Source: a virus. Taken from it: a stretch of DNA of 64,000 bases. The DNA is taken from the IMG/VR virus record IMGVR_UViG_3300025141_000034, positions 1 to 64,000 of that record. The stretch is one strand, 5' to 3'. This document shows positions 29,427-63,966 of the stretch, piece by piece. Made by a program: the position numbers and the translations under genes. How positions within the stretch are numbered: the stretch's first letter is position 1; each line of letters begins with the position of its first letter. A model generated the notes under the pieces. That model made no database searches. It was not told the origin of the DNA and saw nothing but the letters and a program-made list of their open reading frames with translations.

Positions 29427-30674
29427 ATGACAGAAAAGAAGAAGGTGTTGATCTTATCTGATCACGCCCTTTCAACTTCGGGTGTGGGTACTCAAACTAG
29501 ACATCTTGTTAATGGTCTTTTGACCAAGAATGAGTGGACATTTAGACAGTTCGGTGCTGCATTAAAGCATGGCACATATGATACAGTTGTTGTCAATGAG
29601 GATTTTATAATTAAGCCTATTGACGGCTTCGGTAGCAGAGACCTAATCAGGGTTGCACTTGCAACAGAAAAGCCTGATATTTTATTTATTTTCACAGATC
29701 CGAGATTCTTTATCTGGCTATTTGAGATGGAGGATGAGATCCATCAAATTTGCCCGATAGCGTGGTGGCATGTATGGGATAATGAGCCATATCCTAGCTT
29801 TAATCATGTCTTATACGAATCTGTCGATCTCATTAATTGTCATTCAAACATGACATACAACTTAATTAAAGACAGGGTCAATAGTAAGACAAACTTTATT
29901 CCACACGCTGTCCCAGAGACATTATTTTTTCCACTATCTCAGACTGATAGACTCTCTTATAAAATGCAGATCTTGGGAAAAGACAGACTAGATCATTTTG
30001 TTGGAATTTGGGTTAATAGAAATGCTAAAAGAAAAAGGCCTGCAGATGTTGTAGAGTCCTGGAAGATTTTTGTTGACAATATTGAGAAAGAACACGGTCA
30101 TAGAAAGGCTACATTAATAATGCATACAGACCCCCACGATCAGGAGGGTCCAAACCTGTTTAAGAATGTTGATCTTCACAGCATCTCAGATAATGTTTAC
30201 TTTTCCACTGATCGGTTAGAGTTTGAGAAAATGAACGTTCTTTATAACATATCTGACGTCTGTATTAACATAAGCTATGCAGAGGGCTTTGGCCTCTCAA
30301 CACTCGAGGCCATGATGACAGGTTGCCCAATGGCTGCAGTTAAAACAGGCGGATTGACAAGACAGGTTGTCGATCACACAGACGGATCTGAAAATGGTGT
30401 TGCTCTTCCTGTTGAATTTAGGTCGCTTGTAGGCTCTCAGCAGGTACCATTTATTTACGAAGACTACGTCACATGTGAGACAACAGCTGCTGGGCTGATG
30501 AAACTCTTCAATCTTTCAGGTAGTGAAAGGACTAGTCTAAGAGATAAGTGTCTAAAATATGCAAGAGAAAACTTTGCCTTAGAAAAGACTATTGATGAGT
30601 GGCACGATACAATGAAAAAACTCTCTACTGAGTGGAGAGGGGACTATAAGAGATGGGAATGTTTTACGCTATAG
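29427..30674 (+). CDS. GT4-family glycosyltransferase
   Basis: This 415-residue GT-B enzyme has G-V-G-T-Q-T-R-H (about 17-24) as the acceptor-domain glycine loop, F-I-P-H-A-V-P (about 153-159), W-V-N-R-N-A-K-R-K-R-P near 194-204 for the donor phosphate, and S-Y-A-E-G-F-G-L-S-T-L-E-A (about 283-295), a perfect E-x7-E motif. It is therefore a well-preserved GT4. Unlike the GTs of the glycan block it stands next to the nuclease and sigma genes. It could glycosylate phage proteins, DNA or a host target. Its translation start is covered by a hairpin (29390-29416). Confidence 0.85.
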   Translation: MTEKKKVLILSDHALSTSGVGTQTRHLVNGLLTKNEWTFRQFGAALKHGTYDTVVVNEDFIIKPIDGFGSRDLIRVALATEKPDILFIFTDPRFFIWLFEMEDEIHQICPIAWWHVWDNEPYPSFNHVLYESVDLINCHSNMTYNLIKDRVNSKTNFIPHAVPETLFFPLSQTDRLSYKMQILGKDRLDHFVGIWVNRNAKRKRPADVVESWKIFVDNIEKEHGHRKATLIMHTDPHDQEGPNLFKNVDLHSISDNVYFSTDRLEFEKMNVLYNISDVCINISYAEGFGLSTLEAMMTGCPMAAVKTGGLTRQVVDHTDGSENGVALPVEFRSLVGSQQVPFIYEDYVTCETTAAGLMKLFNLSGSERTSLRDKCLKYARENFALEKTIDEWHDTMKKLSTEWRGDYKRWECFTL

Positions 30675-30685
30675 GGGACAAATAG

Positions 30686-31852
30686 ATGAAAAAAGTCATT
30701 ATTAGAGCACCGCTTCTATCATATAGCGGATATGGAACACATTCCAGACAAATTTTTAAGTGGCTTCTTACAAGAAGAGACTTCGATGTAATAACACAGG
30801 TAGTCCAGTGGGGAAATACAACGTGGATGCTTAATCAAGAGTTAGAGAATGGGCTGATTGGAGAGATAATGAAAAGATCTGGTCCCGAAAATCAGTATGC
30901 AGATATCTCAATTCAGGTTCAATTACCAGATGAGTGGGATCCGACATTAGGAAAATTTAACATCGGTGTTAGCGCATTTGTTGAGACTGACATGTGCAAC
31001 CCTGAGTGGATTAAGAAGATTGATACAATGGATCTTGTCATAGTTCCATCTGAACATGTTAGAGAGACGATAATGAGAACTGGAAGTCCAAAGACACCGA
31101 TCCACGTTGTTCATGAGTCCTACATCGAGGAAATTGAACAAAATTTAGATCCACTTCCGCTAGAGATTGATACAGACTTTAACTTTCTTGTTCTTGGACA
31201 GTTTACAGGAAATGATCCGTACAATGATAGAAAAAATCTACTACACACATTAAAGTGGCTATTTGAGTCATTTAGTGACGATCCAGACGTTGGAATAGTA
31301 ATTAAGACAAATCACGGGCGAGGAACTAGAATAGACAGAGAGATTACAAAGCAAAAGGTCCAGCAGGTAATTTCAGAGGTTAGAAAGGGTCCATACCCAA
31401 GGGTTCACCTCATTCACGGTAATTTAAGTAATTCTGAGGTTGCATCGCTGTATGCTGTGGAGTCTATAAGGTGTCTAGTCAGTCTCACTCGAGGAGAGGG
31501 GTTTGGCCTCCCTTTGCTAGAGGCATCTGCTGCTAAAATACCTGTAATTGCAACAGCCTGGTCTGGTCATTTGGACTTTTTAAATATTGGAAAATTTATA
31601 CCCATAAATTATAATATTGTAACAATACCTGAAAATAGAGTTGACGGAAGAATCTTTCTTAAAGATTTTAAGTGGGCTGACCCATCTGAAAGCGACTTTA
31701 AGAAGAAAGTTAAAAAATTTAGAAATAATTATAAAAAACCCAAAGAGTGGGCAGTTGAGCTATCTAGCAGGCTAAAAGATACATTTTCTCAGAGAGCAAT
31801 CAGTGTGAAGTATGACGCTTTAATTGATAGTGCATATTGGAGAAGATCTTGA
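30686..31852 (+). CDS. GT4-family glycosyltransferase
   Basis: This 388-residue GT-B enzyme has Y-S-G-Y-G-T-H-S-R (about 13-21) in the acceptor domain, V-I-V-P-S-E-H-V near 113-120, L-G-Q-F-T-G-N-D-P-Y-N-D-R-K-N near 171-185, and R-G-E-G-F-G-L-P-L-L-E-A (about 269-280), the GT4 E-x7-E motif. It lies 11 bases after the similar GT4 at 29427 and ends in a TTGA overlap with the small membrane protein gene. The pair probably act on the same acceptor. Confidence 0.85.
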   Translation: MKKVIIRAPLLSYSGYGTHSRQIFKWLLTRRDFDVITQVVQWGNTTWMLNQELENGLIGEIMKRSGPENQYADISIQVQLPDEWDPTLGKFNIGVSAFVETDMCNPEWIKKIDTMDLVIVPSEHVRETIMRTGSPKTPIHVVHESYIEEIEQNLDPLPLEIDTDFNFLVLGQFTGNDPYNDRKNLLHTLKWLFESFSDDPDVGIVIKTNHGRGTRIDREITKQKVQQVISEVRKGPYPRVHLIHGNLSNSEVASLYAVESIRCLVSLTRGEGFGLPLLEASAAKIPVIATAWSGHLDFLNIGKFIPINYNIVTIPENRVDGRIFLKDFKWADPSESDFKKKVKKFRNNYKKPKEWAVELSSRLKDTFSQRAISVKYDALIDSAYWRRS

Positions 31853-33287: not shown

Positions 33288-34649
33288 ATGTCATATGATG
33301 CTTCAAATCCCTATGGAAATAATTCTGATAGGAGCGCAGGCAGGATATTTTATACCGTTGTTGTTGCTGACTTTATCACAAATCCGGCAAGCATTTCAAA
33401 ATCTAGACTAAAAAGCCTAAGAGCACAGAGCCTTGCACAAGGCGTGTCTAATAGTGACTTTGTTACGAGAATGCCTAGAAATAGCATTTTAGGGTATAAG
33501 GTTAGCGATGGTGAAGGAGATATGGGTCAGCTTGAGATATTTTATCCATTCTTCTCTCCCCACCTGTGTCTTCCAGTTAAACCCGGAGAGCAGGTCTGGG
33601 TAATGTATGAGACAATTAACGGTGATGAGTCGCTTGGCTACTGGATGACCAGGAAGTGTGTAGATCTTCAGGTCGACGATATAAACTACACCCACGCTGA
33701 TAGGATGAACACATATAGGAATAAGAGAGAGACCGACGGTACGACGTCAGACCTCACTGATCCCATCATGCCTGATTTTCCAAATGGTGATACTTTATCG
33801 TCTGAGGGAAGAACGCTTAAGCATAGGGGCGGATATAAGAGAATTCTTCAAAATTCAATAGCACTTGGAAGGGAGGGAAGAAACCAATTCATTGGTGAGC
33901 CAGTCCCAAGAATTAGCAAGGATCCTGGTGATACTGTCCTACAAGGGTCAAATAACACAAGTATAGTTCTTGGTACTGAGGTCAATCCTGCTGGGTCAAA
34001 TACAAATAGAATTTTTCCAAAAAGCACCTCAGATACAAACCAGGGTGCAATTGATATATGCGCTGGGCGCGGACAGACATCAAAGACAGCAACAGCATTT
34101 ACCACAAAAGGTGTTGAGAATGAAAGGGGGTACAGGGAGGCTTCAAAGTATCCAGCTAGAGAGTTTAAAGATAAGGGTGAGAATATAGCTGAGGGATTTC
34201 CAGACTTTACAAATGATCTCTCAAGAATCTACCTGTCAATGAAGACCAGCGCAGATGAGAAATTCTCAATCAACATAGATGGGATAGATCAGACAGAGGG
34301 CGGTCAGCCCGCAATAGTTCTTAAGACTACACAGCTCAGGCTCGTCGCTCACGAGGATCTCAAGATCGTCATCGGTGAGGAGGGTGTGGGCTCAGCAGTC
34401 GTTCTCAAGTCTGACGGAAATATCGTTTTCGTCCCCGGCCCTAGCGGAATCATCAAGCTTGGCGGAGAGGACGCAGATAAGGCAATACTGACAACAACAC
34501 CTCAGTTTACTACAGACCTGGGAGGATCTGTGACACCGTCCACACCTGTCCAGACACCCTCGGGAGGCGTTCTTGGCTTTCCTGAAGAGACAACAGAGGC
34601 CATAGCAGTTCACTTTAGCACGTTTGCAAGTAAGATACTGGTGAAGTAA
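33288..34649 (+). CDS. Baseplate hub/spike protein with OB-fold start (gp5-like)
   Basis: This 453-residue protein begins with a Gly/Asn-rich leader, then a beta-barrel region containing R-M-P-R-N-S-I-L-G-Y, P-F-F-S-P-H-L-C-L-P-V-K-P-G-E-Q-V-W-V (about 86-104) and W-M-T-R-K-C. That pattern matches the OB-fold N-domain of gp5/VgrG-type hub proteins. The C-terminal half alternates beta-strands with I-V-L-K-T-T-Q-L-R-L-V-A and V-V-L-K-S-D-G-N, typical of a spike stalk. No lysozyme domain is seen between them, unlike T4 gp5. A local GC-rich stretch lies at about 34200-34620. Confidence 0.65.
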   Translation: MSYDASNPYGNNSDRSAGRIFYTVVVADFITNPASISKSRLKSLRAQSLAQGVSNSDFVTRMPRNSILGYKVSDGEGDMGQLEIFYPFFSPHLCLPVKPGEQVWVMYETINGDESLGYWMTRKCVDLQVDDINYTHADRMNTYRNKRETDGTTSDLTDPIMPDFPNGDTLSSEGRTLKHRGGYKRILQNSIALGREGRNQFIGEPVPRISKDPGDTVLQGSNNTSIVLGTEVNPAGSNTNRIFPKSTSDTNQGAIDICAGRGQTSKTATAFTTKGVENERGYREASKYPAREFKDKGENIAEGFPDFTNDLSRIYLSMKTSADEKFSINIDGIDQTEGGQPAIVLKTTQLRLVAHEDLKIVIGEEGVGSAVVLKSDGNIVFVPGPSGIIKLGGEDADKAILTTTPQFTTDLGGSVTPSTPVQTPSGGVLGFPEETTEAIAVHFSTFASKILVK

Positions 34650-35923
34650 TGGCTACAGCTCTCGGTCCGGAAGGCGCCGGTGTCATAGACGAAGACGGTG
34701 TGATTACAGACACCGAGATAGAGAACTTTAAAACTGCTGCATTTGATATCGTTAGAAACGGAATGAGTTCAGAGTTTGCATATATCATTCCTGGTGTTGT
34801 AATAATACCAATAGAAGATGCAATAGGTTTTTCTCTTACACCTAGCCCAGACGTTGCTGACCTTCTTGAGTCACAAAATAGCACTGAGGGAATAGAGTCA
34901 TTTGAGACAACCATTGTAGGTGCTCTAGAGGCAATGGCAAGCACACTCGACATGAATATTGACAATCCAATTGGTAAGAATTTTGGACTCATAGATCCTA
35001 CTGTTGTTATATCTACAGCAATAGCTCAAATAGCTGCATCTATCGAAGGCATCATGGAAAATATAGAGGATGCTGTAGCTGATGCAAAGGATGCACTCGG
35101 TGACTATCTTCAAAACTTTCTGGATGGCCTTAGTGAAGTTTTTGCATTTGAAATGCCGGGCCTTACAGAGATACTTGACAATCTTGTAGAGCTCTTAGGG
35201 TATATCTTCCCACACCCGATACTTCCTGATGGCCACGGTCCAGATATCGAAGGGCTGTTTGGATTCCTTGGAATACCGACCATTTCAGAGATGATGGATA
35301 AGCTCTTTAATAAGATTTACGAGCTCATAGTAAAAATTACTACACTTGATATCGGTGAAGATCTTATCGATGAAATAGTAAATAGATTATTAAACTTTGC
35401 AGAGATCATCATCTCCACGACTCTAGAAAATATTATAGAAGCAGTCACTGAGAAGATCACACAGCTTATTCAGGCAATTGAGATTCCCACAGTATTTCTT
35501 CCACCATGGGTATATACTCTACCAGAGATTACTGGTGATCTGTTTAATATAGATTTATCCTGGAATGAATTTTTCAACCTTGGCTTCTTAGACCCACCGC
35601 CTATAACATTGCAATTATATAACTTGTTTATTGCAATTATGGATTGGTTTAATAATCTATTCACAGGTGACATTGCAGCATTTGTACTTGGTCTTATTGA
35701 TGCCCTATCTAAAGGCGTCGCAGGGGTTGTAGAGTTTATAATTGAGATAGTTGTTGGCTGGATTGCAACTGCGATGGGGCTTGTAGCTGGTGCTGTTTTT
35801 AAAATAGCTGCATCTGTAGCACTGATAAATAGAACAGTTAGATATCTTGCTGTGTGCCTTGTTGGAAAACTAGTAGGTCAAGGATTGATCTTTGATGCTG
35901 TAGCTGCTGAGCTTTTAGGCTAA
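34649..35923 (+). CDS. Unknown virion protein, hydrophobic helical
   Basis: This 424-residue protein starts in a TAATG overlap with the hub gene. It is acidic and rich in amphipathic helices with many Ile/Leu. Near the C-terminus (about 365-400) a long hydrophobic stretch G-V-V-E-F-I-I-E-I-V-V-G-W-I-A-T-A-M could insert in a membrane. I do not recognise the family. The position between the hub and the gp25 gene suggests a baseplate or tail-associated component, possibly one meeting the host membrane. Confidence 0.45.
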   Translation: MATALGPEGAGVIDEDGVITDTEIENFKTAAFDIVRNGMSSEFAYIIPGVVIIPIEDAIGFSLTPSPDVADLLESQNSTEGIESFETTIVGALEAMASTLDMNIDNPIGKNFGLIDPTVVISTAIAQIAASIEGIMENIEDAVADAKDALGDYLQNFLDGLSEVFAFEMPGLTEILDNLVELLGYIFPHPILPDGHGPDIEGLFGFLGIPTISEMMDKLFNKIYELIVKITTLDIGEDLIDEIVNRLLNFAEIIISTTLENIIEAVTEKITQLIQAIEIPTVFLPPWVYTLPEITGDLFNIDLSWNEFFNLGFLDPPPITLQLYNLFIAIMDWFNNLFTGDIAAFVLGLIDALSKGVAGVVEFIIEIVVGWIATAMGLVAGAVFKIAASVALINRTVRYLAVCLVGKLVGQGLIFDAVAAELLG

Positions 35924-35996: not shown

Positions 35997-36470
35997 TTGG
36001 CAAGTAAAAGTTTTAAAAGTGTCGGAGATAAGATCTCTGACAGACAGTTTAATAGGGAGTTTGATCCTCTTCCGTTTGGAATCAAGACACCGCTAAGGTT
36101 TGGAACTGGCAGGTCTGGAATCTTTGACATGCACTATGGTCTCGGTGATCAGATACATGATAATCTAAGAAATCTACTGTTGACAAATCACGGAGAGCGG
36201 CTCGGTCACTATGAGTTCGGTGCAAATTTGAGAGCACTTACGACTGAGCGACTCTCAAATGATAGTTTTGACAATGAGGCAATGATAAGAATTAGAGACG
36301 CTGTTTCTCGCTGGATGCCGTTTATTAACTTGGATTCATTTGATTCATCATTTAAGTCTCCTCCAGATGTAGATTCTATTGCTGAGATTAACATAAGGAT
36401 ATTCTATAGTATTCCCAAGCTTAAGATAGTGAATAAGGGAATCGAGGTTATCTTACATTGTATAGGGTAG
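35997..36470 (+). CDS. 25: Baseplate wedge protein gp25 (GPW/gp25 family)
   Basis: A TTG start with TAGGAG upstream gives a 157-residue protein in the size range of gp25-like wedge proteins (T4 gp25 is 132). It has I-H-D-N-L-R-N-L-L-L-T-N-H-G-E-R-L (about 53-69) followed by Y-E-F-G-A-N-L near 72-78. The L-L-x-T-x-x-G-E-R and E-F-G elements are the conserved core of the gpW/gp25/sheath-initiator family. It joins gp6 in the inner baseplate and starts sheath polymerisation. It lies 4 bases before the gp6 gene, as W-J gene pairs often do. Confidence 0.88.
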   Translation: MASKSFKSVGDKISDRQFNREFDPLPFGIKTPLRFGTGRSGIFDMHYGLGDQIHDNLRNLLLTNHGERLGHYEFGANLRALTTERLSNDSFDNEAMIRIRDAVSRWMPFINLDSFDSSFKSPPDVDSIAEINIRIFYSIPKLKIVNKGIEVILHCIG

Positions 36471-38309: not shown

Positions 38310-39848
38310 ATGTATAGAATACTTACAGCTAGTAAAGATGCTTATATCACAAATAAGATCATCAATAATGACATAAGGGCAACAGATGCTAATACAGGTC
38401 AAGCTGGAACGCTTGATCTATTTAAGCTTTATGCTGAATCTACATCTGGATCAGATACCTCTCCCACTGAGCTTTCAAGAGTGTTGATAAAGTTTGATCT
38501 AGATCCACTTAGGTCGATCACAGGATCATTTTTAGACTATTCTCACTCCTCGTTTAAGTGCTTTTTAAAGCTAAAAGATGTCTACGGTGGCCAGACAACA
38601 CCCTCTAATTTTAGATTATTAGTTGCTCCGCTATCTAAGTCATTTGATGAAGGTGTGGGAAGGGATATAATTTCATTTTCCGACCTTGACTCTTGCAATT
38701 TTGTCACGTCCTCTGTATCCGGTGAGACTCCAGCGACATGGACACTTACGGGATCAAATAAGGAGGGTGTTCTTGGAAGCGATGATCTTGACATCATTAC
38801 AAGTGGCAATCTTCATGATGGTAACGGTGTTACCTTCTTATGGAAAGATCAGCTATTTGAAACCGGAGATGAAGATCTTAATATTGATATAACCACCATC
38901 GTATCCGGCGTCTTGGCTGGACAGATTCCAGATCACGGGTTGAGAATCTCATATTCAGGAACACAGGAGACAGATGAGAAGACTAGGTTTGTTAAGCGGT
39001 TCGGATCTAGACACGCAACTACTTTTGAAAATAGACCTAGCATAGTCATTCACTATAACGACAGGCAGGAGGATCATCACAAGAGCTTCTTCTTTAATCT
39101 CACGGGATCTATATTTTTAAATAACTTTCACAGAAGCCAGCCTGCCAATATGCTATCAGGATCAACTGCAACTGCCGTAAAGGGAGATAATTGTGTAGTT
39201 GTTCGTGTTGTATCTGGATCAAATTCTCAAGGAACCTATTTTTCAAAATCAATAACAGGATCTCAGCACAAGATAGGAGACAGTTATATAACTGGTGTAT
39301 ACTCTGCTACTTTTGCCATATCTGAATTTGCATCAGGGACATTGAGAGATGAGGTAATTAATGCAGCTTCAGCATCTTTTGATGTCTTCTGGGGCTCAAC
39401 TGATTACACACTTGGATATCACACCGGTTCTCTTGTGATTAACAACGTCAGGAGAACAAGCTTTGATAACTCTCCAGATAAGCTATTTTTAAATGTGACA
39501 AATTTAAAGTCTAACTATAGATCATTTGAAAAGGTAAGATTGAGGGTATTTGTGGAAAATCTAGGAAAAGAGGTTGTCTTTAAAAAGGCACCGCTTGAGT
39601 CATCAAGTGAGATATTTACTCAGATGTACTATAGGGTGAGAGATGCATTTAATGGAAAAATTGTTGTTCCATTTGACAAGGCATACAAGTCGACACTTCT
39701 CTCAACTGACTCTGATGGAATGTTTTTTGACTTCTACATGGATACTCTGTCATCAGGTAGGGTATACATCTTTGACTTTCTAATAAAGGATTTCGGAGCT
39801 GATAGGGTCTTTACCAATGTGGGAAATAAATTTCGTGTGGATGAATAA
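38310..39848 (+). CDS. Virion protein with DNRLRE-like N-terminal domain
   Basis: This 512-residue protein opens K-D-A-Y-I-T-N-K and then has E-L-S-R-V-L-I-K-F-D-L-D-P-L near 52-65. The A-Y-I plus R-x-L-I-K-F-D-L pattern is the signature of DNRLRE-type beta-sandwich domains (carbohydrate-binding-like). The rest is beta-rich with repeated T-G-S and S-G-S turns. It lies between gp6 and a gpI/gp7-like protein, so it is probably a baseplate wedge or wedge-attached protein. It has no recognised T4 counterpart. Confidence 0.55.
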   Translation: MYRILTASKDAYITNKIINNDIRATDANTGQAGTLDLFKLYAESTSGSDTSPTELSRVLIKFDLDPLRSITGSFLDYSHSSFKCFLKLKDVYGGQTTPSNFRLLVAPLSKSFDEGVGRDIISFSDLDSCNFVTSSVSGETPATWTLTGSNKEGVLGSDDLDIITSGNLHDGNGVTFLWKDQLFETGDEDLNIDITTIVSGVLAGQIPDHGLRISYSGTQETDEKTRFVKRFGSRHATTFENRPSIVIHYNDRQEDHHKSFFFNLTGSIFLNNFHRSQPANMLSGSTATAVKGDNCVVVRVVSGSNSQGTYFSKSITGSQHKIGDSYITGVYSATFAISEFASGTLRDEVINAASASFDVFWGSTDYTLGYHTGSLVINNVRRTSFDNSPDKLFLNVTNLKSNYRSFEKVRLRVFVENLGKEVVFKKAPLESSSEIFTQMYYRVRDAFNGKIVVPFDKAYKSTLLSTDSDGMFFDFYMDTLSSGRVYIFDFLIKDFGADRVFTNVGNKFRVDE

Positions 39849-42800
39849 TGTCAAAAGAAGATCGTGTACTTGTTCAAAATAAGCCCAAGCTATTTAAACC
39901 TGCTACAATTAGAGGAATTAAAAAAGGGCCGGGAAGAACCAGAGAGACAAGTCTCTCAGATCTAAAAGATACAAACATAGAGAGTACGTCGTCATTTAGG
40001 TATGATCAGCCTGGTGATGGAATAAAGTCAACACAGCAGCTTGACATAGACTGGAGTGACTTTGAGAATCACACATTCTTTAACTCAGCAGTCTCAAAGG
40101 TAAATGTCGCATTTGATAGAATAATCAATGACTTTCCCTTCGATGGAACGAGAAGGAATATTGAGGCGTACACAGACTCTCTAACGGGATATGAGAAGTA
40201 CATTCTAGACATATTCCCTAGGAATGTAGGATATCTAAATTTTTTGGGAAGTAGCACAGCAGGTCTCGACCAGGGAATCTTTATAAAGGTCAGAGATCAG
40301 GCAGGAAGTCTATTTCCACAGTTTTCAAGTCTCAATACCGGAGAGAACGTCTTAGATCCAAGCACAGGGTCGTTCTCAATTGAGATGCAGCTTCTTTGTG
40401 CAGCAGCCACAAATAATGAGCAGGTCATATGTCAGCGTCTAGTGTCAGATAGCTATGGATTTGGATTACTCCTGTCTGGATCATCTTCAACAACAGAGGC
40501 ACGAATTCTTTTCTCTGTAATGTCTGGATCAAGCACCCAAATAGCATCTGGAACAATTGACAAAGGATCATTTCAACACGTATGCGCTGTGTGTGATAGA
40601 ACAGATGGAGTCAATAAGCTTAGGCTATATTCAAATGAAAAGTTCATTGGTGAGTCAGATGGTCAAGTAGAGATAGGTGACGTGGGATTTACAGCTGATC
40701 ACTACTTTACAATCGGATCAGGATCAATACAGCACCTAAGCGGAACTGATAGCGGATCCGAGACACCCGCTTCGAAATACACTCCTTTGGAAACATTTTC
40801 AGGTTCTATGGATGAGTTTAGATTCTTTAATTCTGTTAGAGCACTTGACGATCAAAAGCGGTATGCTAAGAAGACAATCTACTCATCTCACGATCTTAGG
40901 CTGTACTTTAAGTTTAACGAGCCAAGCGGATCTACAGGCGTCAATGATGTTGTCTTAGACAGCTCTGGTAAGTCACTACACGCTAGGGTGACAAACTACC
41001 TTGATGCTGGTTCCGGAATAGCTCTGAGAAGCTCTAGCTCCTTCTATGGATCAGAAATTAAGTCTCCCATGGTTGATGAGGATATTAACCTCGCACCTGT
41101 GCTATTTCCAAAATTTGAAAGAGTCACTGAGTTAAATACGAAACTTTTAACAACTGCAAGCCTGTACGATAATGAGAATCCAAATCTCATAACGAAGCTA
41201 ATTCCACAACACTACCTCGAGGACGGTCAGTACTTTCAAGGGCTTTCGTCAATAGACGGAGGAATAGGTGGGCACTACTCTGGATCATCCATTCCGGGAA
41301 CAGGCGACCTGGGCTCAGCACAGCTTCTTTCTGCCCTTCTATTCATATACGCAAAACAGTTTGATGAGATCAAGCTATTCATCGATGAATTCTCAAATAT
41401 CATTCACGTCGACTACGATGCCTCAAACTCTGTCTCAGATCCATTTCTTCAATTTGCTGGAAAGTATCTCGGAATAGAGCTTCCTAGAATCTTTAACAAT
41501 GCAAGCATCATTCAAGGTGTAGATGGAGAGAATCTAGGCTTGGATCAGGCAAAGGCTGCTAACTCACTAAACTATGTTCAGAACTTGATTTGGAGAAGAA
41601 TTCTGACAAATATGGGTGAAATTACAAGGTCGAGAGGAACTAAGCACAGCGTCAAGGCGCTTATCAGATCAATTGGAATTGAACCAGATAACATCTTAAG
41701 AATTAGGGAGTTTGGTGGCCCCTCTACAAAGACGCTTAGAAATTTACGCGTCAACAGATCAGAGGTCTCAACCATGCTAGACTTCTCTGGATCACTTGGA
41801 GTTCCTTCCCAGGGCTGGACAGCTTCTAATCTCAACTATCAGGGATTTTCAACTGGCTCATCACAATCACCTAGAATAATGTCACCCTATCTAAGCGCAA
41901 GTAGATTTGAGGTGGGATTTCCAACACCGATCGGAACCTTTGTAAGTAAGCACATAGACTACACCACGACAGTGCTCACTGGGTCAGTTAATTTTTCAGA
42001 TGGTAAGTTTAATCCCATATGGAATCACAGCGTTCACGGACACTCAAATAATAATAATGATGGTCTTTTTACATCTGGCTCCTGGTCCTATGAGGCAATA
42101 TACCAGATTCCAAAGCTTACAACAGGCTCTCACTTCTTAACTCAAAGCCTCGCTAGAATGCATGTTACAGGAGCATCATCACCTTGTGATAAGCATGGTG
42201 TTATTTTTAATTTAATTGCGTACTCTGGTTCAAGAAGAATTGACTTATTTGGAAGACCGGGATGGGCTCAAAATCTAGTTTCATCACCTGAGATGAGACT
42301 TATCTTAACAGGTCCTGATATTTTTGATGGAAATCTCTGGAATGTTTGCTTCGGAAGGTTTAGATCTGATGACCCAACCTCAGGGAGCGGAGTTCACGGT
42401 AGCTCCTCTTTTTATCTACGTTGCTCTAGAAATAATTACGGAGAGCTCAAGGAGTATTTTACCACAGCTAGCCTGTTTAAGGGTGAACGTGATTCAGCTA
42501 GCATCTATCAGGGCGGGCTACAACAGAGAGTCTTATCGTCCTATAACGAGCTAGGATCGTTTATTGTAATCGGCTCTCAGAGCATTGATAGATCAACCAG
42601 GCTTTTAAACGACGTTACTAGACTACCAGATGATGAGTGGTCTGCCGCTAGGTACACACAATTTTCAGGAAGAGTAGGTCACATTAGATTCTGGTCAAAA
42701 GCAGTGACGAATACTGAGTTCGAGGAGCACACTAGAAACTTTAAGTCGCTAGGAGTTGACAATCCAAAGATTAACTTTAACTTTGATAGAACAACAACAG

Positions 42801-43621
42801 GTTCGTTTGGAAAATTAAGACTTGACGTCTCTACAGATCAGCCGACCACAAAGTCAGATGCGCTTGGTACGATAACACTTACAGATTTTTCTCAACATTT
42901 TGTGTTCAGCGGATCAGCCCAGCGTCCTTGGAGCATATTTCAGTCATCTGCAAAGCTCGAAGCCTCCGCTGTAAAGGTAGCCTCAGCCAGCTTCTTTCAC
43001 ATGTCAGGATCAGGATTTGAGCCCAATAGAGAGAGGGTGATTAAGCCTCACACATTTCACTATAGCCATATTTCTCCTCACTTTGACCTATCTGAGACTG
43101 ATAGCAAAGTGAGGGTTAGAAGCTACCTGGAACCAGATAAGATAGAGGCAAGTGACTACGCATATCCCGCACCGCTTTATGACATCCCAAGGTCAGATAT
43201 TCCAGATGATGATATAAGATTTGCCATCGACTTTTCAATTGTCCAGGCATTAAATGAAGATATCATGACTCTCTTTTCCTCACTGGACTTCTTTAATAAT
43301 GCACTCGGCGATCCAAATTTAATGTTCGACGACTACTATCCAGATCTCGAGCAGCTAAGAAAGATTTATTTTAATCGTCTTGTAGATAAGATTAATATTA
43401 AGCAATTTTTTGAGTTCTTTAAGTGGTTTGATACAATGCTAGGTGTCATGATTGAGCAATTAATTCCCAAGAAGACTAATTTTAATGGAATTAATTTTGT
43501 GATAGAGTCTCATGTTCTTGAGCGACACAGGATGAGATATTTATCAGATGATATTTATTTAAAGCTATCTGAAAGAGAGTCAACATTTTCAGATCTTGTT
43601 GACAAGAATCTCGAGGACTAG
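39848..43621 (+). CDS. gp7/gpI-like baseplate wedge protein with two LamG-like domains
   Basis: This 1257-residue protein begins in a TAATG overlap. Residues about 160-375 and 690-985 look like concanavalin/LamG jelly rolls (F-Q-H-V-C-A-V, G-S-M-D-E-F-R-F-F, and later G-R-V-G-H-I-R-F-W-S). Between them, W-R-R-I-L-T-N-M-G-E and R-S-R-G-T-K-H-S-V-K-A-L-I-R (about 581-610) and G-I-E-P-D match the G-T-x-x-A-(V/L)-x-x-L segment of P2 gpI-type wedge proteins. The end (about 1190-1257) is helical with N-F-V-I-E-S-H-V-L-E-R. I infer the gp7/I role in a W-J-I baseplate core, enlarged by lectin domains. Confidence 0.55.
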   Translation: MSKEDRVLVQNKPKLFKPATIRGIKKGPGRTRETSLSDLKDTNIESTSSFRYDQPGDGIKSTQQLDIDWSDFENHTFFNSAVSKVNVAFDRIINDFPFDGTRRNIEAYTDSLTGYEKYILDIFPRNVGYLNFLGSSTAGLDQGIFIKVRDQAGSLFPQFSSLNTGENVLDPSTGSFSIEMQLLCAAATNNEQVICQRLVSDSYGFGLLLSGSSSTTEARILFSVMSGSSTQIASGTIDKGSFQHVCAVCDRTDGVNKLRLYSNEKFIGESDGQVEIGDVGFTADHYFTIGSGSIQHLSGTDSGSETPASKYTPLETFSGSMDEFRFFNSVRALDDQKRYAKKTIYSSHDLRLYFKFNEPSGSTGVNDVVLDSSGKSLHARVTNYLDAGSGIALRSSSSFYGSEIKSPMVDEDINLAPVLFPKFERVTELNTKLLTTASLYDNENPNLITKLIPQHYLEDGQYFQGLSSIDGGIGGHYSGSSIPGTGDLGSAQLLSALLFIYAKQFDEIKLFIDEFSNIIHVDYDASNSVSDPFLQFAGKYLGIELPRIFNNASIIQGVDGENLGLDQAKAANSLNYVQNLIWRRILTNMGEITRSRGTKHSVKALIRSIGIEPDNILRIREFGGPSTKTLRNLRVNRSEVSTMLDFSGSLGVPSQGWTASNLNYQGFSTGSSQSPRIMSPYLSASRFEVGFPTPIGTFVSKHIDYTTTVLTGSVNFSDGKFNPIWNHSVHGHSNNNNDGLFTSGSWSYEAIYQIPKLTTGSHFLTQSLARMHVTGASSPCDKHGVIFNLIAYSGSRRIDLFGRPGWAQNLVSSPEMRLILTGPDIFDGNLWNVCFGRFRSDDPTSGSGVHGSSSFYLRCSRNNYGELKEYFTTASLFKGERDSASIYQGGLQQRVLSSYNELGSFIVIGSQSIDRSTRLLNDVTRLPDDEWSAARYTQFSGRVGHIRFWSKAVTNTEFEEHTRNFKSLGVDNPKINFNFDRTTTGSFGKLRLDVSTDQPTTKSDALGTITLTDFSQHFVFSGSAQRPWSIFQSSAKLEASAVKVASASFFHMSGSGFEPNRERVIKPHTFHYSHISPHFDLSETDSKVRVRSYLEPDKIEASDYAYPAPLYDIPRSDIPDDDIRFAIDFSIVQALNEDIMTLFSSLDFFNNALGDPNLMFDDYYPDLEQLRKIYFNRLVDKINIKQFFEFFKWFDTMLGVMIEQLIPKKTNFNGINFVIESHVLERHRMRYLSDDIYLKLSERESTFSDLVDKNLED

Positions 43622-43624
43622 AAG

Positions 43625-46600
43625 ATGCCAGTATCTCCCTTTAAAGATAGGTTTGGAAAGGCTTTAGCTCTAACCGGCTCAGCTTCAGGATCATCTCCGC
43701 CTTCTGTCGGCGTAAGCTCATCATTTAAGATACTGAATACAGCAGCTGGAGGAATGAAGACAGCTAAGATTGACATCTATAGACAGGGTGTGAGCATAAC
43801 ATCAAGACGATATATCAGGAGAGATTCACCCTCAACAGTTAACGTATCTGGTCAGACTGCAACAATTGGCTCACTTCCAGTCTTAACATCTAACGGCATG
43901 GACGGTGAGACACTAGAGGAGATCCACGCTATTGAGGTTAGGGATTTTGGTCAACCCAAGCTATTCGTTGACGATGAGCCATTTGAAGACATGGCCTCCA
44001 TGAAGATCCATACCAGAATCTCATCAGATATAACCTCCGCGTATGGTGGTGCGATAGCGTATCTAAATGATACCAATCAGCAGCTATATCCAGTAATATT
44101 ATCTAATGTTTCAATGAAATATCCGGATCAGATGGACGGTGTCATCGAGCCATTTCCAATCAGAGAGGTTATAAGTAACAGATCTGCTGAGACTCCGTTT
44201 GTTGCCCACAGGGTAAGGGCAGATATTTTAGATGGAAATATTGAGGAATCTTACGGCTCTGATAGGGTGACACAGATTATGTCTGTGACAGCTTCACAGC
44301 AAATTGATCCATTTATAGATTCTGCTGAGATAGCTATGGCAGATGGTGGTACATTTACGCTATTTGCACCAGGATTTACATCTGATCTTCAGCGAATTTT
44401 ACCACCCTTTCTTGACAGAGGTTCACCCGGTGCTGAGGGTAAGGAGAGATTTTGTAAGATTCTTGTTGGAACAGGATCTCTAAGGGATTTAGGTCTCATT
44501 GACAGCCATCACAAGTCAGCAGGTTCAGGATTCACCTATGGAAATAATCCAGAAGGAACAGATTCACTAGCATTCGGTGGGCTTCTCAGTACAGGCTCTA
44601 CAAGCATGTCAAGATTCTTAAGCAAGCCCCCGCGTCTTGAGTTAAGGGAGACAGACTCTAGAACTGGATCATATCCGACTATCAATAGAACAGGTGATAG
44701 GAGTAGACATGGAAAGTATAGCATTAACTTTGACGATAGAAAGACAGTCATCTTTACATCTGCTTCTGCTGTGTACCCACAGGTTTTAAACTTTGACTCC
44801 CCAAGCTTTATCTTTCCAACGAGCTCACTAGGAAAGGTCACAAGAAATCTAAGAAAAGGTGTGTCAGACATACGTGTTGAGTTTACACCAGGAGAGGCCT
44901 TAGGGCCATATGACGATAGCCTGATATCTCTGGGATCAAGTTCATTCTACATGACAGGAACAACAACCGATATAATGGATGGATTTTCTGGTCCGCTCAA
45001 GAGTAAGACACAGATATTTTTTGACGTCACTCCCAGTGAGACACTTACGCTGACTAGATCGCCCAATAGTAGATTTAGTATATTGGATTCAGGTGCAGAA
45101 TCTACAAAGACAGGATTTGCATACTGGAATAGCACATCTCGACGGTGGGAGCAAATAGGGCTTAAAGATCCTGCAACAGGGGCTGATATTAAGTTTGACT
45201 ACGCAGCAGAAGGCTCCGCAATAAACAATGTCACTAGTGGAACAAACACATATCCCCAGCAGTTTACACCATGTCAGCACACGACATTTACAAAAGGTCA
45301 AATAATTGGAAAACCTTTCAATAGTGTTCTTAGGTCAAGGCTATATCACCTAATAGGTTCTCCAACAGTCTCTTCTTTTGCGCCGTTTAAGACCACCTAT
45401 CACGCAACAAGCAGCCAGACGATAAGCATGTCTGACTATATCTCACACCCATTTCTCTTAGAAAAAATCGTCGTTAAGATGGAGGGGCGTGCACAGAGAG
45501 TGCACCCTAGGGCAAAAGAGGGTGCTGCGATTAGGCATCAAGATGATTACATGTTTTTCATCTACAGACAGGAAAGGAGAAATCCAAGCGGAAGCTTTAG
45601 AGGGGGTGGGCCTGACGATAACTCACCAGGAACGCCGACGCCGTCAAATTTCTTCAGAGTGGATTCTGCGACTGATATCTCAGGAAGCCAACGATTTCTT
45701 GTTTGCAGCGGAGCGATGACATTCTATCAGGGAACTGTTGCTACAACAGATGCAGGATCAAATAGAGTTACTTACGACTATAAGCCAGTTAACTCTCCAG
45801 CATTCTCCTATGATTTTAACATTCTAGCTGCAGGAGCAACACAGAGAGTTGGAGCGTTTACAGGATCCATTAAGCTAGAGATCGAACCAGCAGTGGCAAC
45901 ACAGGGAATAAAGGGTAGGTCAGTTATCTTTGATAGTGATTCTCCAAATGCAGCAACAAGAGGTGCTGGTATCTATCACTACTGGCCCGGTGGAACAACG
46001 TCAAAACCATTTATGCACGGTGGGCATAGAGTCAATATTACAGACTCCTATGACATGGTCAAACCCTCAATATATACAGGAAAGGCTGGAATTGATGCGT
46101 CATACGGCCAGTGGACATTTACTCAAATAACAAATGGTACTGTTCCAAAGTCAAGTCTCGGACCAAGACAGCTTCCAATAACTGAGATAGATTCAAGAAC
46201 CTTTAGGCCTTTAGGCGGACCCATCGGTGACCCTATTGAATTTGGAAATAATACAAATGCAGCTAAGGGAATGGCTCCGAGAAGGGATGCAAATCAGTCA
46301 GCTAAGTCACCCTACATTCTATTTCCTGAAGATAAGATTGTCTTTGGTCTAGAGGCAGCCATTGCGCCAGGAGACATATCAAGCATGACAGGGTCAGGAA
46401 ATGCTGGTGGAGGATTCGGTGGGCAAAATTCACTTACCGGATCTAAGCTTGAGATATTTCAGTCAGACTCTAGACAGACAATTGTATTTTACGGATCACT
46501 CATAAGAGATGGAAAGGAACATCACGACACACTTAACCAGCCGTTGACATCTGACGCCATTCACGAGATGATCTTCGAGCCAGTCGTTGATCAGTGGGAC

Positions 46601-47632
46601 ATATCTTCAGAAGCTGTAAATGCAGGAACATATGCTGACAACTATGTTACAGGGACTATGACATCTGCTCCATATCCTCACAACGCAGATGCAGATGAGT
46701 TCTCTAATAATCTCAATTCAGTTGTTAGAGGTGTGGCTGGAAGCTTTATCAAGGGGACAGCACCTAATCGTGCTGGGTCTTTTCAAAGATCTGTCACCAT
46801 GTTTGACAGCTCTCAGAGATTCTATGACACGATAATGCCAGATCTTAAGACATATGTCAGACGATCAGGCGGATTTCAAGAGCTGCAAGCGTCAGGATCG
46901 ATGAGCACAATAGTCTTTAATCCGACTAAATTTTACATCGAGGGCGACGGTCATAGAATGCCATTCCCATATGATGGAAATCCTACGAGAAATATATCTG
47001 ATTCTACAAACCTATTAGTAATATCAGCCGCAGGATCTAGCTATCTGTATGGATCGTCGCAGTCGTCTCTAATTAGAAGACTTCTCTTTATGATTGGATT
47101 TGAAGGCGGAACATTTGACACGTATACCACATTTACCGGTAAGACGGGAGCAACCACTACAACTATAGCGTCATTTGCTCACGCACACCCACAGTCAACT
47201 GGCGCAATGGGATATAGGTATGGAATACAAAATATCTATCCAGAAAATCCCAGAGCCGTATTTAGAAGAGATAGCTATGGTCAATTTAGAGATATGCTTG
47301 AGCAGAGAAAAGAGGGAAGATTTTTTGAACCATTTTTATCTGACATAGATAATTTAAATCTTAGAGGTAAGAGTGAGAGCACCGTCGGCGATCCAGCTGT
47401 ATTCTGTAAGTTTACTAAACCAAGTTCAGATGAATCAGAAGATCCCTATCTAACAACGTGCTCTAATATGAGCTTTGCCTCAACGTCTTCACTTCCATTC
47501 TTCGATGGTGAGATTGTTAATATTACCAATCCAACTCTACTTAAGACAGTTGCTGTGGTGAAGGGAACAACCCTCCCAGCTGCAGTTCAGACAGCCCTGC
47601 AGACTCCTGGAATTAATTCTAAAAAGGGTTAA
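43625..47632 (+). CDS. Very large virion protein of unknown family
   Basis: This 1335-residue protein is Gly/Ser/Thr-rich and beta-predicted, with turns such as T-G-S-A-S-G-S-S and many S-G-T/T-G-S motifs. I find no catalytic motif and no coiled coil. It starts 3 bases after the gpI/gp7-like gene and ends 9 bases before the fibre-like gene, so it is inferred to be a baseplate or tail-fibre network protein. It could take the place of T4 gp10 or gp12-type proteins, but there is no motif to prove it. Confidence 0.5.
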   Translation: MPVSPFKDRFGKALALTGSASGSSPPSVGVSSSFKILNTAAGGMKTAKIDIYRQGVSITSRRYIRRDSPSTVNVSGQTATIGSLPVLTSNGMDGETLEEIHAIEVRDFGQPKLFVDDEPFEDMASMKIHTRISSDITSAYGGAIAYLNDTNQQLYPVILSNVSMKYPDQMDGVIEPFPIREVISNRSAETPFVAHRVRADILDGNIEESYGSDRVTQIMSVTASQQIDPFIDSAEIAMADGGTFTLFAPGFTSDLQRILPPFLDRGSPGAEGKERFCKILVGTGSLRDLGLIDSHHKSAGSGFTYGNNPEGTDSLAFGGLLSTGSTSMSRFLSKPPRLELRETDSRTGSYPTINRTGDRSRHGKYSINFDDRKTVIFTSASAVYPQVLNFDSPSFIFPTSSLGKVTRNLRKGVSDIRVEFTPGEALGPYDDSLISLGSSSFYMTGTTTDIMDGFSGPLKSKTQIFFDVTPSETLTLTRSPNSRFSILDSGAESTKTGFAYWNSTSRRWEQIGLKDPATGADIKFDYAAEGSAINNVTSGTNTYPQQFTPCQHTTFTKGQIIGKPFNSVLRSRLYHLIGSPTVSSFAPFKTTYHATSSQTISMSDYISHPFLLEKIVVKMEGRAQRVHPRAKEGAAIRHQDDYMFFIYRQERRNPSGSFRGGGPDDNSPGTPTPSNFFRVDSATDISGSQRFLVCSGAMTFYQGTVATTDAGSNRVTYDYKPVNSPAFSYDFNILAAGATQRVGAFTGSIKLEIEPAVATQGIKGRSVIFDSDSPNAATRGAGIYHYWPGGTTSKPFMHGGHRVNITDSYDMVKPSIYTGKAGIDASYGQWTFTQITNGTVPKSSLGPRQLPITEIDSRTFRPLGGPIGDPIEFGNNTNAAKGMAPRRDANQSAKSPYILFPEDKIVFGLEAAIAPGDISSMTGSGNAGGGFGGQNSLTGSKLEIFQSDSRQTIVFYGSLIRDGKEHHDTLNQPLTSDAIHEMIFEPVVDQWDISSEAVNAGTYADNYVTGTMTSAPYPHNADADEFSNNLNSVVRGVAGSFIKGTAPNRAGSFQRSVTMFDSSQRFYDTIMPDLKTYVRRSGGFQELQASGSMSTIVFNPTKFYIEGDGHRMPFPYDGNPTRNISDSTNLLVISAAGSSYLYGSSQSSLIRRLLFMIGFEGGTFDTYTTFTGKTGATTTTIASFAHAHPQSTGAMGYRYGIQNIYPENPRAVFRRDSYGQFRDMLEQRKEGRFFEPFLSDIDNLNLRGKSESTVGDPAVFCKFTKPSSDESEDPYLTTCSNMSFASTSSLPFFDGEIVNITNPTLLKTVAVVKGTTLPAAVQTALQTPGINSKKG

Positions 47633-63600: not shown

Positions 63601-63966
63601 CACGCGACATCTAATGGTGTTGGAAATATCTTTTACGATGAGGGAGTTGTCTTAATTAAGTCACCCCATCTGGCTCAGCTTGGAAAGGAGCAGTTTAAGA
63701 TGACGTTTAACGGCGAGCAAAATACTCATGTTCTATCAATAAGGGTTCCATGTCAGCCAGGTCTCATCAATAGCTCATCAAATCCTGGATTTAAGGTTCT
63801 ATCTGCCTCACTAGACGCAAATGATATTGAATCTGAGTTTGTATACATTACAGGGATCAATTTTCACGATGACAACATGAATGTTATAATGAAAGCTAAC
63901 CTTGCGCAGCCTGTTGTGAAGAGAGACGACGACGACTTTCTATTCAGGGTAAAGATGGATTTTTAA
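60631..63966 (+). CDS. Large LamG-domain virion protein with inserted beta domain
   Basis: This 1111-residue protein has a CTGGAGG ribosome-binding site. Residues about 125-247 form a Thr/Ser/Gly-rich domain (V-T-I-N-S-I-P-T-N-G-H-T-L, then D-T-Y-T-F, and late G-T-A-G-N-G-K-T-I-T-G-T), a module found in many phage structural proteins. Residues about 400-670 form a LamG/concanavalin-like jelly roll with H-W-H-H-V-A-I-R-W near 518. The C-terminal 40 residues (N-F-H-D-D-N-M-N-V, A-N-L-A-Q-P-V-V, F-R-V-K-M-D-F) match the end of the 59310 protein. A carbohydrate-contacting tail or fibre role is likely. Confidence 0.6.
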   Translation: MSIIKITPDLIEQVTMTTHPKRVFVSSSQGGVNDKPVMDSGVLSPTGTMGQVSLMARNNRVIKGIREFNPDSALFNEDLSKTLIFLDSAAKWPALAETIGWNPYDLGNFLGVATSGSHISTDDGNCAGALVTINSIPTNGHTLILTDADGTSDTYTFSTSVTQEDSTKSNVGISGVDTTSGVATSLRISINLASLDDDIQITAAIPASNELTVYMLTKGTAGNGKTITGTAVSAESISVSSFSGGTPKLDSEGRYMGAVRQLSLPAKNSKAFSITRFRPPFLFQSDENQGQGGDNSSPESFDAKRRIVKNQVRNILLPHYMSKFTHPNYAYTNYHTLNFFTSSINWQLTKPYATSTEITSSPYKWMNGSVLAYPCLTGSLNTTFTSNEQYALRAKRFDGRYTPESAFTFDFYINPRYGNDVRPTAGGPKKGDFRPGTIFHMSGTYAISLVSGSSKAADGSANGFRILVQLSQSAEYPPSKWKILPGHDRPIFGANNSNYKQDPYGYAWVSPDNVLRRDHWHHVAIRWGGSKVNNGTGSFVIDGNIVSEFVITGTDSIRPFVNHSFGGVRARADRFLAGRADPNALFIGNFYEGTNVTGSGGANTTIERFFNQAAQKAEGFTPAVSGVLGRGGDPSSFTFNHPLNAEVHDLKIFNSHRTLHQIMTSSVEGPTDTSDLIFYVPPFFINENRKRNFLVTAVSSSRREYFTDTGGAKYDDESAEEPFNYPTDVFTQPYTSLPFNAGLSMTVDATDISVENFTKDIANNVYPRLVYLTSSVDSSLVTSAAATRASKGAVQDYLFWNFNTGSIRKRSLTVLPCDNGKFKPNYSLIYTGSDTDGVMLTGSEGYLYRDDLGEFDASLINLSDMFVTRPQPLTPMMGWDGLGYNRISHTLSVYTGSDHASPPEASPYSPNAKIKDGTADVHFIAYQASLDQSSNEIVLFNIPNLFYGNRIEPGSFKLEDENISGSNGKIKITLRDDGLGTLYRADCETAHATSNGVGNIFYDEGVVLIKSPHLAQLGKEQFKMTFNGEQNTHVLSIRVPCQPGLINSSSNPGFKVLSASLDANDIESEFVYITGINFHDDNMNVIMKANLAQPVVKRDDDDFLFRVKMDF

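Follow-up and report, generated by a model that had tools for sequence, protein, structure and literature searches.

The window, i.e. the whole stretch of 64,000 nucleotides of viral DNA that was analysed, contains a row of baseplate genes in the order W, J, one extra gene and a gpI-like gene (Table 1). A sequence-only reading of this DNA had claimed the order W-J-(x)-I, and this was confirmed, with the gp25/W-like and gp6/J-like genes and a 512-aa open reading frame preceding the gpI-like gene, which encodes a protein of 1257 aa. Pfam Baseplate_J matches the gp6/J-like protein with an E value of 0.11 only, and its relatives in Microcystis phage Mel-JY01 and Flavobacterium phage immuto cover at least 99% of its length. 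The 512-aa protein is found in all 20 compared relatives, with 38-81% identity over at least 99% of its length, and its match to DNRLRE is weak and below the cut-off. Two genes separate J from the homologue of the 1257-aa protein in Mel-JY01 and immuto. The antisense strand over the gpI-like gene has many stops, and searches of the PHROGs and NCBIfam profiles with the 1257-aa protein gave no match.

Table 1. Genes of the locus and modules of the gpI-like protein (res, residues of the 1257-aa protein; L-numbers denote relatives).
Feature	Position	Strand	Evidence or remark
gp25/W-like sheath initiator and wedge protein	35997..36470	+	PF04965, E 1.5e-6, 28.4 bits vs cut-off 27.2; phrog_43
gp6/J-like baseplate wedge protein, 610 aa	36475..38307	+	phrog_219, E 2.2e-17; TIGR02243, E 2.9e-11, below cut-off
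512-aa protein between J and the gpI-like gene, role not assigned	38310..39848	+	conserved in relatives
Putative wedge protein (1257 aa) of gpI/gp7-like type, bearing two lectin-like insertions	39848..43621	+	ATG start
N-arm, res 45-135	39980..40252	+	most conserved module; entropy 1.23, the lowest (78 sequences)
LamG1 region, res 136-400	40253..41047	+	Pfam PF13385 match at 40334-40840; VIA-align
gpI-like core, res 401-650	41048..41797	+	sole PF09684 match; profile and fold comparison
Variable stretch ahead of LamG2 strand 1, res 646-745	41783..42082	+	38 differences in L005/L007, 6 in L003/L008
LamG2 beta-sandwich, res 746-949	42083..42694	+	strands of AF2 model; profile match to LamG1
LamG2 loop 2, res 774-783, variable	42167..42196	+	allele pair differences
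LamG2 loop 4, res 803-815, variable	42254..42292	+	allele pair differences
LamG2 loop 8, res 878-903, variable	42479..42556	+	allele pair differences
C-terminal domain, res 1056-1244	43013..43579	+	common to groups lacking one or both jelly rolls; hhalign E 5.5e-7 to immuto group

Tail_P2_I (PF09684) has a single match in the 125,024-base record, at 41594-41683 (residues 583-612, E 0.0047), and its 13.4 bits lie under the curated cut-off of 20.6. Matches with E up to 10 were found in 23 of the 42 window or relative records, and as the score is below the cut-off here and in every relative (0 of 41 above it), we call the protein gpI-like and do not file it in PF09684. All 21 matches in relatives that were mapped by coordinates fall at the equivalent place in the relative's protein. 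The same search gave no match in seven records of the immuto group; of the controls, P2 was positive (8.1e-58) and T4 gave no match. In an hhalign-type profile comparison with 13 gpI sequences the core was recovered as gpI-like with an E value of 1.6e-4, and among seven other choices of segment the one containing the core gave 1.8e-4 and the other six at least 0.069, while the whole 1257-aa protein reached a probability of only 18%. When the core was modelled alone (pLDDT 69.8) and compared with the PDB, four of 43 chains had a Z of at least 2, and the top two rows were chains of contractile baseplates, the wedge protein gp32 of A-1(L) (8kea_c, Z 4.9) and a baseplate chain of the Streptomyces CIS (9gtp_A, Z 3.9), both weak by the tool's own note. 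The gpI profile on its own finds 8kea_c (E 0.049) and 9gtp_E (E 0.034). Foldseek gave no significant match with the core model (best E 3.1), and a PDB sequence search with the core and with the 1257-aa protein returned nothing useful. A fold search with the whole model is a good test of LamG1 only; that T4 gp7 and other wedge chains are absent among its listed matches says little, and T4 gp7 is absent also among those listed for the core. The 1257-aa protein is most likely a remote baseplate wedge subunit of the gpI/gp7 type.

With P2 gpI, R2 pyocin Tri2 and A-1(L) gp32 it has in common a helical core with a GT motif, the gene order after W and J, a remote profile match and a weak structural match. 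These proteins are 176-191 aa long against 1257 aa here, and the window protein departs from them by its two inserted beta-sandwiches, its N-arm, its separate C-terminal domain and its score below the Pfam cut-off. T4 gp7 resembles it by gene order and type, as a large wedge protein whose gene lies behind that of gp6; PF09684 gives no match in T4.

A gpI-type segment had been proposed to lie between two lectin-like regions, and it does: the motif RSRGTKHSVKAL occupies residues 594-605, inside the PF09684 match, with LamG1 before it and LamG2 after it. LamG1 is matched by PF13385 (Laminin_G_3) at residues 163-331 with 32.0 bits, above the cut-off of 27.6, and its jelly-roll fold aligns in VIA-align with the LamG-like domain of PAPP-A (Z 20.4, rmsd 2.5, 202 residues), so that the first LamG/concanavalin-like region can be taken as established. 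The second region stands in part. In the AF2 model this stretch, of residues about 746-949, has 10 strands and looks like a beta-sandwich, and there is an hhalign profile match to LamG1 (E 5.1e-5), but it does not reach the PF13385 cut-off; LamG2 has no Pfam match, PF13385 hitting one stretch only of the 1257-aa protein, in LamG1. In a further VIA-align row neurexin (3asi) aligns through both of its LNS domains with model residues 83-1023 (Z 14.4, 341 residues), and the rmsd of 19.4 means that this is not one rigid superposition. LamG-type folds serve also as plain protein-protein domains. Both sandwiches, lectin-like by resemblance in fold and sequence, may be glycan binders.

The N-arm, the gpI-like core and the C-terminal domain are common to three related groups of proteins. 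The window group of 84 was collected with patterns taken partly from LamG1 and the N-arm, keeping the best 80 matches, and the presence of both domains in it is therefore biased towards full-length relatives. Family statistics exclude L011 (a fragment) and L076 (an internal stop), the 84 still including L076 cut at its stop, and the alignment holds 78 of the 84 with the window included, without the near-duplicates L006, L031, L032 and L061 and the cut L034 and L076. The Mel-JY01 group consists of Mel-JY01 and 18 of 25 Mel-JY01-type loci, and the immuto group of 16 of 21 immuto-type loci, in both cases after removal of duplicates and fragments. With HMMs built for each group the N-arm was found in all members (84/84, 19/19 and 16/16), its matches across to the immuto group being weak. 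The distance from N-arm to core is 362-438 aa in the window group (84 proteins), 123-147 aa in the Mel-JY01 group (19) and 100-111 aa in the immuto group (16), and from core to C-terminal domain 366-476, 320-325 and 35-36 aa. By this spacing both jelly rolls are present in 84 of 84 window-group proteins, LamG2 only in 19 of 19 of the Microcystis phage group and neither in 16 of 16 of the immuto group; LamG1 is thus, among the compared groups, confined to that of the window. The two cultured homologues, WWT39511.1 of Mel-JY01 and QQO92079.1 of immuto, are both annotated as hypothetical proteins and have the same core and C-terminal domain. They differ from the window protein in the N-terminal 280 aa or so, WWT39511.1 lacking LamG1 and QQO92079.1 both LamG1 and LamG2. 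Since the groups have both jelly rolls, one or none among the same three shared parts, the lectin-like domains are, by sequence comparison, insertions in a wedge scaffold. The earlier claim of an I-type protein enlarged by lectin-like parts thus holds, the relatives revealing the sandwiches as additions to that scaffold.

Some close relatives differ in a very local way. Pair comparison took in 105 distinct proteins; L269 was dropped as short. The contigs of L005 and L007 are nearly identical over about 11 kb, with 11 base differences in 5964 upstream (0.2%), one in 735 in the core and none in 1968 in the other modules, against 101 in 891 (11.3%) in the LamG2 region, where the changes sit in the loops. 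A similar set of loops differs in a second pair, L003/L008. The even internal loops of L005/L007 have 21 of 79 positions changed and the odd ones 1 of 57 (P 3.9e-5), a comparison that presumes alternating antiparallel strands; strand 8 ends with four changes that are counted in the 21, loop 8 itself having 13, and by the table counts the contrast is large also for loops 2, 4 and 8 alone with the strand 8 changes left out. In L003/L008 the figures are 20 of 79 and 8 of 57 (P 0.13), and a clean one-rim pattern, which holds in L005/L007, is not significant there because loop 9 varies too, with 8 differences.

In 19 non-overlapping close pairs the amino acid divergence of LamG2 was above that of the core in 13, equal in 4 and below in 2. 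The figures for LamG1 were 9, 5 and 5, and hypervariability spread uniformly over both lectin domains was rejected (LamG1 above the core in 9 of 13 untied informative pairs, sign test P 0.27, the 14 informative pairs having been picked after viewing all 19 and five near-identical pairs set aside). In the pair L058/L257 it is LamG1 that is raised instead. The two domains behave differently, with change concentrated more strongly in LamG2. LamG2 is also present in the Microcystis phage group, and on both counts it is the better candidate for outside contact. Pooled pN/pS is 0.20 for LamG2 and 0.10 for the core, i.e. purifying selection on average, and dN/dS in the LamG2 region is 0.8 in L005/L007 against 0.02-0.14 in most pairs. 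A diversity-generating retroelement was rejected as the source of variation on the substitution pattern only, the changes from L005 to L007 being spread over all bases and not adenine-specific. Loops that change amid a near-constant region suggest that the baseplate of this large marine phage itself touches the host or some other variable partner.

The most rational explanation, to which we would give a probability of roughly 0.6, is a gpI/gp7-type wedge protein with two LamG inserts, in which the rim of LamG2 faces a variable partner, likeliest a host glycan. By homology and gene order, the N-arm, core and C-terminal domain would build the wedge beside gp6/J and gp25/W. Comparison of the groups places the two insertions at separate joints of it: LamG1 parts the N-arm from the core, and LamG2 the core from the C-terminal domain. 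The LamG2 rim loops would meet a partner that is not the same in phages otherwise nearly identical, and the observed pattern could arise if short patches were exchanged or diverged rapidly, presumably under selection. A host surface glycan would be the likeliest partner and a dock for a tail fibre the second, and in the former case the baseplate would contribute to adsorption together with the fibres. LamG1 is probably more static, serving as a spacer or for contact.

The strongest competitor, unlikely as we consider it, is that the LamG2 rim is a docking adaptor for a variable tail fibre or some other protein of the virion, so that its loops track this partner and not the host. According to excerpts of PMC10966104 the long tail fibre of A-1(L) is attached through the C-terminal loop of the wedge protein gp32, and excerpts of PMC8894135 describe fibre contacts for the gp7-like part of Alg12; the large downstream gene at 43625-47632 is moreover variable among relatives. 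Yet LamG2 differs in L005/L007 although their next genes (322 aa) match at 99.7% identity and the genes after these agree fully over their first 70 aa, as far as the L007 contig reaches; it differs also in L003/L008, where the downstream protein of 1374 aa has 91% identity from end to end. It is rather improbable that both sandwiches are plain structural bulk or spacers with weakly constrained loops, their local differences being neutral recombination. The constant presence and similar length of both domains in all 78 aligned window-group proteins and the purifying selection on average agree with such a role, and LamG1 fits it in most pairs, but 11.3% in one region against 0.0-0.2% around it is beyond weak constraint alone, and the dN/dS of 0.8 and the same kind of loops differing in an independent second pair also speak against this reading. 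Very unlikely, too, is an assembly artefact with L007 as a chimera of strains. Its mosaic allele is known from one contig of a single metagenome assembly, with an N inside the gene, and the other allele occurs in both L005 and L006, at 99.98% identity; however, a chimera would have had to switch many times in 0.8 kb to give the alternation of changed patches with L005-identical stretches, and LamG2 divergence is raised in L003/L008 and L074/L078 as well. That the protein is no wedge at all but a lectin-bearing fibre or decoration protein resembling gpI by chance would suit the low PF09684 score and the weak structure matches of the core, but is highly improbable given the place of the gene after W and J, the constant position of the PF09684 match and the convergence of profile and fold evidence on the same two PDB entries.

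Host recognition is usually assigned to fibres and spikes, and the wedge is regarded as a conserved machine. In this lineage what looks like an exchangeable head sits on a gpI-like wedge protein. We may tentatively, and with some doubt, imagine this protein as a main determinant of host specificity in a widespread uncultivated group of myoviruses, which would recognise their hosts with the LamG2 rim loops and retarget by trading short loop patches, with the surrounding machinery left unchanged. No description of the protein was found in excerpts of the literature on LamG, concanavalin A-like and carbohydrate-binding domains in phage baseplates and wedges, including PMC10684548 and PMC7029224. 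Wedge proteins that bind cells and have carbohydrate modules of other types are already known, and the wedge with lectin-like domains is therefore a new variant and not a new kind. In Vp4, by excerpts of PMC11406892, wedge protein 3 (Gp119) has two CBMs, which are missing from its close homologue, Gp177 of Deep-Blue, and a GFP fusion of Gp119 decorates cells. Gp119 is alike in being a wedge protein with added carbohydrate-binding folds; unlike the window protein it is another wedge subunit (A511 Gp105-like) with CBM16-type folds, and the excerpts report no local hypervariation. In AlgoCIS, following excerpts of PMC8894135, a wedge protein likewise contains inserted CBM-like domains, and for Alg12 the gp7-like part is described as a hot spot of re-engineering in evolution, but there the CBMs belong to Alg11, in the cage around the spike of a bacterial injection system, and not to a gpI-like phage protein.

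For asking what the domains add, the relatives are a ready natural comparison, some having both jelly rolls, others one or none. Cultured relatives are nearly absent, two records being matched by the 1257-aa protein, and the lineage is widespread in metagenomes, with at least 454 relatives among the 600 stretches examined.

The gene claimed by the sequence-only reading is real as an intact frame of 1257 aa in a virus record of 125,024 bases, and it is conserved among IMG/VR relatives. Such relatives are encoded in at least 454 of the 600 IMG/VR stretches examined, the best 80 being 39-70% identical and mostly nearly full-length. A search of 50,697 phage records with the protein as query gave only two matches at E <= 0.01, to Microcystis phage Mel-JY01 and to an uncultured, unannotated phage of 484 kb, each covering at most 23% of its length; the Mel-JY01 protein as query found in addition four Flavobacterium phage immuto records. 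Seven near-full-length relatives exist among predicted viral structures (TMq 0.49-0.65), none of them with a functional name.

Coordinates of the genes discussed
Record	Position	Strand	Feature	Match
Window	420-2354, 8988-10697, 29427-31852		Glycosyltransferases and a Nol-like carbamoyltransferase (sugar-modifying genes)	phrog_1601, E 2e-104 (carbamoyltransferase)
Window	34649-35923		Tape-measure-like protein	
Window	38310-39848		512-aa protein encoded after J, ahead of the gpI-like gene	DNRLRE, weak, E 4.9e-4, below cut-off
Window	39848-43621	+	gpI-like protein, 1257 aa	PF09684, below cut-off
Window	60631-63966		Second large protein	Laminin_G_3, residues 486-579, E 0.0024, below cut-off
MW353176.1	139848-142372		Stretch noted for Laminin_G_3 matches, immuto group	
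Record of L221	38749-41681		Stretch noted for Laminin_G_3 matches, immuto group	

Directly upstream lie W (gp25; PF04965, above cut-off) and J (gp6; phrog_219, E 2.2e-17), as had been read from the sequence. The gpI-type segment proposed there holds in part: the single PF09684 (Tail_P2_I) match in the whole record covers residues 583-612, around the RxxGT motif, but its score (E 0.0047, 13.4 bits) is under the cut-off of 20.6. Whether the match is due to chance was examined in 23 related records beyond this one, P2 and T4 serving as controls, and then in 18 more. P2 was positive (8.1e-58) and T4 gave no match, while 12 of the 23 and 10 of the 18 relatives matched at E <= 10, every one below cut-off. 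All 21 matches mapped to coordinates fell inside the relative's own homologue, at about residues 538-616; seven immuto-group records gave no PF09684 match. Compared with a profile of 13 gpI proteins, the core aligned at E 1.6e-4, the core plus flank at 1.8e-4 and six other segments at no better than 0.069; for the whole protein the probability was just 18%. Folded alone, the core reached a pLDDT of 69.8, and Foldseek returned no match to this model. In a second fold comparison only 4 of 43 chains reached Z 2, led by 8kea_c, which is the gp32 wedge protein of cyanophage A-1(L) (Z 4.9), and 9gtp_A, from a Streptomyces contractile injection baseplate (Z 3.9). The gpI profile by itself retrieves R2 pyocin Tri2, 9gtp_E and 8kea_c; judged by length and range, 9gtp_A and 9gtp_E are likely one molecule. 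Since these individually weak lines combine, the core is probably gpI-like.

The first of the two lectin-like domains claimed earlier, LamG1, is certainly laminin-G-like, with a Pfam match above cut-off and a fold that superposes on the LamG-like domain of PAPP-A over 202 residues (Z 20.4, rmsd 2.5), pentraxins coming next. The claim for the second, LamG2, is carried by a predicted beta-sandwich with strands from residue 746 to 949 and by profile relationship to LamG1 (E 5.1e-5), but not by Pfam, which gave no match there. N-arm, core and C-terminal domain are common to all three homologue groups. The window and Mel-JY01 groups can be aligned from the core across LamG2 into the C-terminal domain (E 2e-26); between the window and immuto groups core (2.5e-10) and C-terminal domain (5.5e-7) align, with no profile alignment between them. 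The Mel-JY01 and immuto groups have their first ~590 residues in common (5.1e-69). Measured with HMMs built separately per group, the N-arm lies 362-438 aa from the core in the window group (84/84), 123-147 in the Mel-JY01 group (19/19) and 100-111 in the immuto group (16/16), and the core 366-476, 320-325 and 35-36 aa, respectively, from the C-terminal domain. These distances place LamG1 in the window group only and LamG2 in the window and Mel-JY01 groups, with the immuto group as the bare scaffold and both domains as inserts. Immuto-group phages (MW353176.1 and the L221 record), with neither jelly roll in their gpI-like protein, show three matches to Laminin_G_3 outside it, in ORFs of 221-460 residues, and may carry the lectin-like domains on separate proteins.

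Both domains are present in all 78 window-group sequences compared. Their entropies, 2.06 and 2.00 bits, exceed the 1.71 of the core, the 1.53 of the C-terminal domain and the 1.23 of the N-arm. Pooled pN/pS over 25 close pairs, which overlap and are therefore non-independent, was 0.20 for LamG2, 0.17 for LamG1, 0.12 for the C-terminal part and 0.10 for both N-arm and core. In 19 non-overlapping close pairs, five of them nearly identical and of little information, amino acid divergence of LamG2 was higher than that of the core in 13, equal in 4 and lower in 2.

The sharpest local change is seen between the related loci L005 and L007, over an aligned ~11 kb. In the LamG2 region 101 of 891 bases differ, against 11 of 5964 upstream and 24 of 1186 downstream, up to the end of the L007 contig (binomial P about 1e-89, clustering of changes ignored). 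N-arm, LamG1, the stretch after LamG2 and the C-terminal domain are without differences, the only one of 735 core bases that differs is an N in L007, and proteins of neighbouring genes are 99.7-100% identical. The changes are concentrated ahead of strand 1, in loops 2, 4 and 8 and where strand 8 ends, with very few in other places. In an independent pair, L003 and L008, the stretch ahead of strand 1 and loops 2, 4, 8 and 9 change most, with none in loops 1, 3, 5, 6, 7 and 10 and single residues in some strands. Loops 0, 2, 4 and 8 would share one rim if adjacent strands are antiparallel, with loop 9 as a misfit. One L007 patch is 83% identical to L008 and 59% to L005, which suggests recombination with a relative; no near source for the remaining patches was found among six other sequences compared. 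A diversity-generating retroelement is argued against by the substitutions, which are not adenine-specific. L050 and L085 (LamG2 43% different in nucleotides plus 54 gap columns, core 21%) are another candidate for allele replacement. In L058 and L257 it is LamG1, not LamG2, that diverges (28.4% in nucleotides, about 13% in the core), so LamG1 would be exchangeable too.

The most likely reading is, we think, that this wedge subunit also serves as a contact protein, with LamG2 as a head whose rim would meet a partner that varies. First among the candidate partners is a host glycan, since sugar binding is known from related folds (the fold-search rows include sialidase carbohydrate modules) and since the Vp4 wedge protein with added CBMs decorates host cells, which its CBM-less homologue does not (PMC11406892). 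The main rival is that LamG2 is a dock for a fibre: in A-1(L) the long fibre is held by wedge gp32 (PMC10966104), and in Alg12 a gp7-like part is in contact with fibres (PMC8894135). The sole evidence separating the two is the change of LamG2 beside unchanged visible neighbours. Carbohydrate modules in wedge proteins are already published for Vp4 Gp119 and the Alg11 spike cage (PMC11406892 and PMC8894135), and concanavalin-type domains have been recorded in structural operons of pelagimyophages (PMC7029224). What differs in the putative contact protein is that LamG-type domains are inserted into a gpI-like subunit and that a rim changes locally; no description of this combination was found in the literature searched.

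Among the neighbours, the 512-aa protein is 75-81% identical in the closest seven relatives, and at least as conserved as adjoining genes in near relatives. The tape-measure-like protein reaches just 29-39% identity in six of these relatives and has no match in the seventh, compared with 65-81% for W, J and the 512-aa protein.
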